52,496 bases of DNA from an archaeon GW2011_AR5. Its GTDB lineage: Archaea; Aenigmatarchaeota; Aenigmatarchaeia; GW2011-AR5. Under the pieces are notes generated by a model. The model made no database searches. It was not told the origin of the DNA and saw only the letters and a list, made by a program, of their open reading frames with translations. Positions 488 through 2,989 of this stretch are shown in pieces. The stretch is taken from assembly GCA_000806115.1 (NCBI GenBank), contig JWKQ01000002.1:1-52496 (forward strand), read 5' to 3'. Position 1 is the first letter of the stretch. Every line of letters begins with the position of its first letter. The translations under genes were made by a program, and so were the position numbers.

Positions 488-623
488 GTCTCGCAAGAGA
501 ATGGAGAGTAAACTCCACACATTTGGCATTTATCAGTAGGCACGATGTCGTTCAGAAAATTACTTCTGTTTACTTTCGTAAACAAAAATAAAGGAGGTGA
601 TCCAACCGCACGTTCCCGTACGG

Positions 624-1175
624 TTACCTTGTTTGTCGCTCTAAAAGCCGTTGAAAAGAGAGCAAGCGTGTTTGTTTCTCAGGATGCTTGGATTTTATCA
701 ACTTAATGAATCTCAGATGAGATTCTCTGCTTATAAAAAATCTCCAGCAACCAGTCTTCTTGTCATACTGGTGAACTTTGCCACACCTTATTCCAGATTT
801 TTCAAGAATTGCCACAATCTCGTCCAGCTTTTCCTTTTTCTTCTGGACGAACTGTACGTAGAAGAACTTTTTGATGTCATGGGGAATGCCTCCTTCTGCA
901 TCAAAAAATCCTGCAACATACGCCAATCCTTGCTTTCTATTGAGTGTCGAAACATCGATCGGTTTCAGAAGTTCAGGAAGTTTCGTTTCCAAAACATGTA
1001 TATTTCTTTGTTGAAAAATCCACGAATTGGACTCCAATACGGCAATTATCTGGCGTAAGCGTTCCAGCCATTCCCTGTTTTTCTGGGTAATGACGGCAAC
1101 TTCACCTTTTTGCTTGCCTCTATACACGTAGCCATCATGAAGCGCACCATGTAGATACGCGATGTGCTCATTCAT
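624..1175 (-). CDS. LAGLIDADG homing endonuclease encoded in the 16S intron
   Basis: The 183-residue protein has two LAGLIDADG-like helices: AYLHGALHDGY near residues 6-16 and LAYVAGFFDAEGG at residues 84-96, with acidic residues at the ends (D14, and D92 or E94). The two-motif architecture fits a monomeric endonuclease that cuts the intronless 16S allele. The C-terminal half has the basic, aromatic-rich composition usual for DNA contact. The stop codon (624-626) lies in the downstream 16S exon rather than in the intron, so a spliced or circularised intron would lose this terminator. The start ATG at 1175 lies inside the intron. The family assignment is strong; activity is untested. Confidence 0.93.
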   Translation of the reverse strand: MNEHIAYLHGALHDGYVYRGKQKGEVAVITQKNREWLERLRQIIAVLESNSWIFQQRNIHVLETKLPELLKPIDVSTLNRKQGLAYVAGFFDAEGGIPHDIKKFFYVQFVQKKKEKLDEIVAILEKSGIRCGKVHQYDKKTGCWRFFISRESHLRFIKLIKSKHPEKQTRLLSFQRLLERQTR

Positions 1176-1206
1176 GATAATACTTGTCTTAGTCGACTTT
1201 TAAAGT
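633..1206 (-). other. 16S intron 1, about 574 nt, with a homing endonuclease ORF
   Basis: The conserved CCTTGTTACGACTT (complement of the 3' minor-domain sequence near E. coli 1492-1510) is split after CCTTGT at about 632 and resumes at about 1207. Repeated T residues leave one or two bases of ambiguity at each boundary. The insertion lies at about E. coli position 1499, in the decoding-site end of helix 44, and splits the 1492R primer site. It encodes a LAGLIDADG protein on the rRNA-sense strand. Archaeal rRNA introns of this class are removed by the tRNA splicing endonuclease at a bulge-helix-bulge, which was not modelled here. Confidence 0.92.
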
Positions 1207-1328
1207 TACGACTTAACCCTCCTTGCAGACTTGTGATTCAAATCGCTCTACGCGAGCTTCACCAAAAGTCCACTCGGATGGTTTGACGGGCGGTGTGTGC
1301 AAGGAGCAGGGACGTATTCAGCGAAAGA

Positions 1329-1492
1329 TTCCACTGAAGCAAATGCATCATAGTGCTGCTATAGACAAATTAAAGTGTCATCCGCCCAGTCTATATTCAC
1401 CGGAAATTCCTGCGTCAACAAGAATTTCCTCATAGTCAAACCGTTCTGACACTCTGTTCGTCTCGCCAAAAAATCATCTTGCACTTGCTCCG
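1329..1492 (-). other. 16S insertion 2, about 160 nt, in the helix 43 loop
   Basis: The flanking 16S sequence keeps the short helix 43 stem (AGCGAA with TTTCGC), but the loop that usually holds about nine bases is expanded by about 160. The insertion ends pair with one another: 1336-1347 is complementary, with G-U pairs, to 1480-1491 over 12 positions. A closed terminal helix fits either a bulge-helix-bulge intron or a retained expansion segment. The exact boundaries cannot be set by eye. It contains no ORF of note. Confidence 0.75.
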
Positions 1493-2070
1493 TTGATGAC
1501 CTTCGCTTACTAGGGATTCCGGCTTCACGAGGGCGAGTTGCAGCCCTCGATCCGAACTAAGCGTAGGTTTAAGAGATTGGCTTCGCCTTACGGCGTTGCA
1601 TCCCGTTGTCCTACGCATTGTAGGCCGCGTGTATCCCCGTAAATTCAGGCCATACTGACCTGCCGTAGCCCGCTCCTTCCTCTGTTTTAGCAACAGCGGT
1701 CCCGCTAGAGTGCCTACCCTCCGGGGAGGATAGTAGCAACTAGCGGCACGGGTCTCGTTCGTTTCGTGACTTAACACGACACTTCACAGCACGAACTGAC
1801 GACGGCCATGCAGCACTTCTCAGCTTGTCAGGTAACCCCTTTAGAGTGACCCTCATTCTGCTGTCTTCACGGGTAAGGTTCCTGGCGTTGAATCCAATTA
1901 AACCGCAGCCTCCACCCCTGGTAGTGCTCCCCCGCCAATTCCCTTAAGTTTCAACCTTGCGGTCGTACTCCCCAGGCGGCCCATTTAACACCTTCGCTAC
2001 GGCACCACAGAATCTCGAAGATTGTGTGACACCAAATGGGCATCGTTTACAGCGTGGACTAACGGGGTAT

Positions 2071-2140
2071 TTAGTTGAAAAATTCCATTTTTCACTAAAT
2101 TGAGAAATTCGAAAATCTCCCAATCGGAATTTCTCAATAT
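2071..2140 (-). other. 16S insertion 3, 70 nt, in the 790 loop
   Basis: The universal GGATTAGATACCCC sequence is broken after GGATTAG (or two bases later, because AT is repeated). The 70-base insert folds into two hairpins: one 11-bp perfect stem (TTGAGAAATTC with GAATTTCTCAA) and one stem formed from GAAAAAT and ATTTTTC. The site corresponds to about E. coli 791-793, in the P-site 790 loop, where a retained insertion should be lethal. It is therefore probably a small intron. It splits the 806R primer site. Confidence 0.85.
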
Positions 2141-2398
2141 CTAATCCCGGTTGCTCCCCACGCTTTCGTCCCTCACTGTCAGACCCGTTCCAGTCAGGCG
2201 CCTTCGCCACAGGTGGTCCTTCACGGATTAAAAGATTTTACTCTTACCCGTGAAATACCCCTGACCTCTCCCGGTCTCGAGTCTGATAGTATCTCCAGCC
2301 ATCCCAACAGTTTGCTGTTGGATTTCACCAAAGACTTATCAAACCAGCTACGGACGCTTTAGGCCCAATAAACGTGACTACAACTTGAGGCGCGGTTA

Positions 2399-2521
2399 TT
2401 TACGGTTCGAAGAACCCGTGTCGTACGACGCATAAATGCGTCATTGCTTATTCAAGAATCATTTGACTATTTTCATAATCAAATAAAACTGCCAGAAGAA
2501 TGTTTGTTACGATTCTTCGAA
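2399..2521 (-). other. 16S insertion 4, about 123 nt, next to the 530 loop
   Basis: The 515 region GCCGCGGTAA is followed not by the usual continuation but by about 123 extra bases, after which TAACCGCGCC resumes the gene. The insert is closed by a perfect nine-base inverted repeat, 2406-2414 with 2513-2521. It contains internal hairpins, including GACGCATAAATGCGTC at 2427-2442, which resembles a palindrome found elsewhere in the window. The position, about E. coli 533, is essential for decoding, so an intron is the best reading. Confidence 0.82.
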
Positions 2522-2989
2522 TTACCGCGGCGGCTGGCAACCGTCTTACCCACCTCTTATTCGCTTACCTTTTTACAGTAAGTAAAAGATACCGCATTGC
2601 GATATCACTCAGGATTCCCTCGTCACCCTTTCGGGCATTGCGAAGTTTTCGCGCCTGCTGCGCCCCGTAGGGCCTGGCTTCATGTCTCAGAAGCCATCTC
2701 CGGGCAATCGCTCTCACGACCCGTACGGATTATAGCCTTGTTGAGCAATTACCTCAACAACAAGCTAATCCGTCGCAGTCCCATCCTATAGCACATTGCT
2801 GCTTTAAGCGAAAAAGCCTTCCAGCAATTATCGCCTATCGGGTATTACGCCCAGTTTCCCAGGATTATCCCCGTCTATAGGGCAGGTTGACTACGTGTTA
2901 CTGAGCAGTACGGTTTGTATTGCTACAAGTACCTCGCATGGCTAAGCCGAATCCTGATAGTAGTAGTCTCCGGCGGGATCAACCGGAAT

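Follow-up and report, generated by a model that had tools for sequence, protein, structure and literature searches.

The 16S rRNA gene of this tiny uncultured archaeon is interrupted by four insertions that we interpret as archaeal bulge-helix-bulge (BHB) introns: the one in helix 44 would be mobile, and the one in helix 43 would be spliced and would host a C/D-type guide RNA directed at the same 16S. We put this reading at roughly 80%, with splicing, homing, expression and methylation as predictions from sequence. It is built on exact intron boundaries and BHB motifs, sites that are empty in relatives, the family of the endonuclease, guide-target complementarity, covariation with the rRNA and a fixed spacing to box D.

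Four insertions in the 16S rRNA gene

The window (the whole stretch of 52,496 nucleotides that was analysed) is the start of a contig in an 858-kb genome (G000). Its one archaeal 16S rRNA gene lies on the minus strand and is matched by Rfam RF01959 from 2989 to 1179 with 1320 bits. This match ends where the last insertion begins, and the true 3' end of the gene (GGATCACCTCCTT) is found at about 591-593. The gene and its predicted introns are as follows:

591..2989, minus strand: 16S precursor including the four introns (RF01959 match and E. coli alignment; about 1467 nt when spliced)
2400..2522, minus strand: intron I1, 123 nt, after E. coli 532 (530 loop); BHB GCGG[UA^A]...CCGU[AA^A]
2069..2138, minus strand: intron I2, 70 nt, after E. 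coli 793 (790 loop); BHB UUAG[AU^A]...CUAA[AU^A]
1329..1493, minus strand: intron I3, 165 nt, after E. coli 1363 (helix 43 loop); BHB UCAU[CA^A]...GUGG[AA^U]
633..1206, minus strand: intron I4, 574 nt, after E. coli 1499 (decoding helix 44); BHB GUCG[UA^A]...CGAC[AA^A]

When 2522-2400, 2138-2069, 1493-1329 and 1206-633 are removed, the resulting 1,467-nt RNA can be aligned with E. coli 16S over its full length. The universal sequences GCGGTAATA, GATTAGATACCC and GTCGTAACAAGGTA are regained, and the h43 loop becomes GTCATCAT, the same loop that is present in class members without an insertion there. The alignment and the restored sequences bear out the four insertions proposed by the initial annotation. 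Its locations (about 533, about 791, the h43 loop and about 1499) were right and can now be given exactly as 532^533, 793^794, 1363 (h43 loop) and 1499^1500, and its figure of about 926 extra bases was a good approximation of the exact total of 932 nt. Regarding the 23S rRNA, a first-pass RF02540 search of the whole G000 assembly returned no gene; it is either absent from the assembly or too interrupted for such a search.

Intron boundaries and the splicing machinery

A search for BHB motifs, suggested earlier as a check, gave a BHB at 4 of the 4 insertions, predicting the exact cuts. All four have two 3-nt bulges and a 4-bp helix at the junctions, with inner helices of 10 to 12 bp (at least 10 bp in I1, and with one mismatch, located at the bulge, in I3). 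The I3 BHB contains two G-U pairs, and its outer helix has at least 7 bp. Random cut pairs within the same precursor reach the observed scores at a frequency of about 2e-5 or less, and among 961 neighbouring alternatives the chosen cut ranks first for three introns and second for the remaining one. Besides, each of the four sites is unoccupied in some relatives.

The genome encodes both EndA and RtcB, the latter being the ligase that would seal the introns. Taken together, the BHB motifs, the restored exons and the empty sites support the earlier suggestion that the insertions are spliced introns, as do the same-site introns of relatives, the presence of EndA and RtcB, and a homing endonuclease ORF in I4. 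We consider the identification of the four insertions as archaeal BHB introns supported, with splicing in vivo as its predicted consequence.

By sequence, the EndA of G000 is closest to the Methanocaldococcus jannaschii enzyme. The Aenigmatarchaeota EndA (L041:707-1381, equivalent to G000:C2 ~183,200-183,880; L068-L097) keeps the conserved Tyr and His. The position aligned with the catalytic Lys of M. jannaschii is occupied by Ala in most of the aligned genomes, by Thr/Ser in two and by Lys in none, within the motif NIRARMLWA, in a lineage rich in BHB introns. The RtcB gene (G000:C1:388035-390800; L165:233-3142) contains an intein (Pfam Intein_splicing, 8.5e-18).

Introns across the Aenigmatarchaeota class

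Using a purpose-written spliced aligner and archaeal alignment references, we located the insertions of 71 16S genes from the class; E. coli as the sole reference misplaced introns. Insertions of at least 25 nt were present in 66 of the 71 genes, with a median of 4 per gene. About 230 BHB-like introns were called at 74 sites, with up to 11 per gene, by a heuristic caller whose counts are uncertain for the most divergent genes, such as that of G130. Most of the introns of at least 250 nt carry an ORF (27 genes checked). The sites of the window recur, with 1499 occupied in 17 genomes, 793 in 16, 1363 in 16 and 532 in 8; seven relatives share the site of I1 and fifteen that of I2. Four introns are not unusual in this lineage, so the initial remark that four is a high number holds against the Thermoproteales literature and fails within the class. 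These data place an intron-dense 16S lineage on the map, with four introns here and up to 11 BHB-like ones in a relative. Since several of them interrupt the most conserved stretches of the 16S, amplicon surveys will miss these archaea.

At the 3' end of one 16S gene (L015, genome G022), a 2-nt exon (AC) is all that lies between the introns at 1499 and 1501. The BHB helix of the 1501 intron (CGUA:UACG) forms only once the 1499 intron has been removed, which implies ordered splicing. A similar dependence exists between the 1494 and 1499 introns of another gene (L039, genome G007).

The 1499 intron and its endonuclease

I4 was read as a probable intron by the initial annotation, which overlooked the ORF that it carries:

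624..1175, minus strand: LAGLIDADG_3 homing endonuclease ORF, 183 aa (Pfam PF14528, E=1.5e-13)

The LAGLIDADG domain has the acidic motif GLAYVAGFFDAEGG. The ORF continues into the 3' exon; its stop codon, 9 nt downstream of the splice site (window 624-635, minus strand), is supplied by the universal 16S sequence AAGGTAAC. Hence, translation must use either the unspliced RNA or a circular intron; by direct reading, the ORF in circularised I4 would gain TLKVD before a stop. A protein scan of the genome contigs gave no relatives of this enzyme, and relatives were drawn from the whole genomes of the class. Within the class, the closest ones are encoded by introns inserted at 16S position 919 (best E=2e-20), so the I4 enzyme or its intron has probably changed site in the past.

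The helix 43 insertion as a probable intron

The cuts of I3 are those of perfect BHB introns in relatives: G027, G024 and G053 each contain a BHB intron at this very nucleotide, and one of the three reaches 847 nt and carries a long ORF. Judging by these boundaries, the helix 43 insertion also sits at an intron site. I3 is strongly folded (z=-6.2), and its MFE fold favours a slightly different pairing beside the bulges.

Guide-like elements in I3

A side-by-side comparison of the 1363 introns of the family revealed common internal motifs. This guide-like content had escaped the initial annotation of the h43 insertion, which was otherwise confirmed. The elements are:

1430..1442, minus strand: guide element GGTTTGAC-T-ATGA, perfectly antisense to the gene's own 16S 1405-1412; N+5 points to A1408
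1378..1388, minus strand: guide element TGGGCGG-ATGA, antisense to its own 16S 1399-1405; N+5 points to C1403
1348..1360, minus strand: guide element AGCAGCAC-T-ATGA, antisense to its own 16S h34 1048-1054; N+5 points to C1051
1471..1480, minus strand: degenerate box-C-like AAGAUGAUUU adjoining the intron stem (family conservation)

Each of the three antisense elements is followed by a box-D-like (N)AUGA, and two of them covary with the rRNA across relatives. The boxes of I3 are degenerate, with AAGAUGAUU, AUGA in place of CUGA and no clean RUGAUGA, and are canonical in relatives. Taken singly, each of the complementarities in I3 is too short for significance, and the antisense matches to 16S in I1 and I2 were not significant. 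In G000, the genes for fibrillarin and Nop5 are adjacent. We predict that I3 is an intron-hosted guide for rRNA 2'-O-methylation. An H/ACA pseudouridylation pocket for U1406 (GGUUU and UGGGCGG around a stem) was also considered and dropped in favour of the C/D reading: the order of its elements fits G000, G001 and G006 and fails in G009, G011 and G012.

Across the class, Watson-Crick antisense of at least 8 nt to the gene's own 1398-1414 was found in 14 of 48 introns located at or after 1363 and in none of the 66 that lie upstream. When 1,525 target windows were scanned, the ones that start at 1395-1406 came out on top, followed by the 3' anti-SD and, among well-sampled windows, by those in h34 (1040-1048). 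The guide for A1408 together with a box D was present in 19 of 54 downstream introns and in 0 of 79 upstream ones, with a mean of 0.03 in shuffled sequences. A swap test gave a weak result: introns matched their own rRNA at least as well as the best foreign type in 9 of 20 cases and better than the foreign mean in 20 of 20.

Compensatory changes were detected at several target positions. At 1410, an rRNA A faces an intron U in G000 and G097, while elsewhere a G is paired with C (or forms G-U). An rRNA U is matched by an intron A at 1411 in G001 and G010 and at 1404 in G034, and an rRNA A by an intron U at 1049 in G030; at 1400, the rRNA C or U is paired with an intron G or A. In G011, the h34 target is changed (U1051) and the h34 guide element is missing. 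Common descent accounts for some of these pairs; at 1410, 1411 and 1049 the changes took place in separate families or genera.

Canonical C/D cores in relatives and in tRNA introns

In one family (f26), the introns at 1492, 1499/1500, 1513 and 1520 have the arrangement guide-N-CUGA-(2-10 nt)-RUGAUGA-guide-UGA, which is the core of a C/D RNA with two guides, the second of them directed at the 3' anti-SD. A C/D core with the same guide was found in 19 of 156 genomes of the class, and a reversed-pattern control gave 0. Eleven of these cores are within 16S genes or at their 3' part, and seven are in apparent intron-containing tRNA genes with the anticodon loop CUUGA, probably Ser-UGA; in three of these seven tRNA loci the Rfam tRNA match spans the intron. 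The match in G121 lies inside a long ORF and was taken as chance. The tRNA loci (L146, L152, L157-L161) have anticodon-loop introns with a C/D core aimed at 16S A1408, and some of these genes seem to be interrupted by another intron in the T arm. In our own reading of the 1499 introns of relatives, N+5 of their GGGCA/G guide points to C1402, a nucleotide that carries a 2'-O-methyl group in E. coli and probably in eukaryotes as well.

Proposed mechanism and alternative readings

In the reading that we favour, EndA would cut the four BHB introns and RtcB would seal the exons, restoring the sequences of the decoding centre. I1 and I2 would be short introns without an ORF. The LAGLIDADG enzyme of I4 would cut intron-less 16S at 1499 and so lead to homing. 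I3 would be spliced as well and would have become the host of a C/D-box-type guide RNA. Its antisense elements would pair, within the same 16S, with h34 and the 5' strand of h44, directing 2'-O-methylation near C1051, C1402/1403 and A1408. Points that count against this reading are the degenerate boxes of I3 and its individually short complementarities, the weak swap test, the pairing in the MFE fold of I3 and the Ala at the catalytic Lys position of EndA. On a broader scale, we lean towards the view that BHB introns were co-opted in Aenigmatarchaeota to carry C/D methylation guides aimed at the decoding centre. One and the same guide (for A1408 plus C1402 or the anti-SD) would have moved between 16S sites 1363, 1492, 1499, 1500, 1513 and 1520 and tRNA introns (probably Ser), and the excision of a once-selfish intron would deliver a guide that modifies the ribosome it had interrupted.

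One could argue that all four are ordinary selfish BHB introns or decayed remnants, the antisense in I3 being due to chance or serving folding only. BHB introns with homing endonucleases are indeed common across the class and the matches of a single intron lack significance; we nevertheless find this unlikely, as the same target recurs in introns at different sites with compensatory changes and a fixed spacing to box D, and the canonical core with the same guide also occurs inside tRNA introns. The latter, which would act in trans, also argues against a role as a chaperone in cis, keeping the 5' strand of h44 open while its 3' strand, which contains the introns at 1492-1513, awaits splicing, with no methylation involved. 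Such a role would account for the choice of targets (the 5' strand of h44 and the 3' terminal anti-SD), given that the introns adjoin or sit inside the same helix, and would leave unexplained the fixed N+5 spacing and the canonical C, C' and D' boxes of relatives. We hold it to be improbable.

Two other readings concern the nature of the insertions themselves. I3 could be a retained expansion segment, with only the other three spliced: h43 accommodates length changes better than the other three sites, the insertion is strongly folded and its inner helix is mismatched at the bulge. We regard this as quite improbable, since the h43 loop of insertion-free relatives is exactly the product of splicing at the I3 cuts, and the same nucleotide bears BHB introns in three relatives, including the long ORF-bearing one. 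To group I introns at 1498, like those of other DPANN archaea and CPR bacteria, we give almost no credence. Such introns occur in Micrarchaeota and Nanohaloarchaeota (PMC6125680) and a LAGLIDADG ORF is present here, but Rfam scans for the insertions gave no match to RF00028, to any other group I model or to other families, and I4 has a complete BHB at a site that is 1499.

Comparison with known systems

The 16S introns of Thermoproteales, for which 14 loci are listed (Jay and Inskeep 2015, PMC4496867), resemble those described here in their BHB boundaries, in being either LAGLIDADG-bearing or ORF-less and in their location at functional sites of the 16S. Seven of their loci coincide with class-wide sites (374, 722, 781, 908, 919, 1205 and 1391), whereas the sites of the window (532, 793, 1363 and 1499) are all outside the 14-locus list. 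The host here is a DPANN archaeon, and I3 carries a candidate guide RNA. The group I introns at SSU 1498 of DPANN archaea and CPR bacteria (PMC6125680, PMC11270868) share with I4 an almost identical insertion point and a LAGLIDADG_2/3 enzyme; in contrast, I4 would be spliced through its BHB by EndA, with no ribozyme.

The closest precedent for I3 is the pre-tRNA-Trp intron of Haloferax and Pyrococcus, which holds the C/D-box guide sR50 (reviewed in PMC7994747) and is likewise a BHB intron with a C/D guide for the RNA it interrupts. In the window, however, the host is the 16S rRNA and the targets are in h34 and h44, and other lineages of the class have the same guide in a tRNA intron, from where it would act on rRNA. 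C/D sRNAs with the same predicted target nucleotide, 16S A1408, have been proposed in Sulfolobus acidocaldarius and Nanoarchaeum equitans (PMC4644070); those are sRNA genes, while here the guide lies inside an rRNA or tRNA intron. In the open-access literature, which mostly leaves out subscription journals, we found no report linking C/D sRNAs with rRNA introns, so guide-like cargo in an rRNA intron may be new. A 2013 review considered functional noncoding RNAs from archaeal rRNA introns an open question (PMC3608112), to which introns of the I3 type offer a concrete and testable yes. If true, a selfish element would have been kept by assuming a modification task for its host RNA, like eukaryotic intronic snoRNAs.

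I1 belongs to a further set of introns with common motifs. The 532 introns of the family (I1 at 2400-2522, minus strand) share CTGGCA, the complement of the TGCCAG found slightly upstream in the 530 loop (at about 516-521). They also have in common a second, GATTCTTGA-like motif. Both motifs could possibly take part in further guide or exon pairing.
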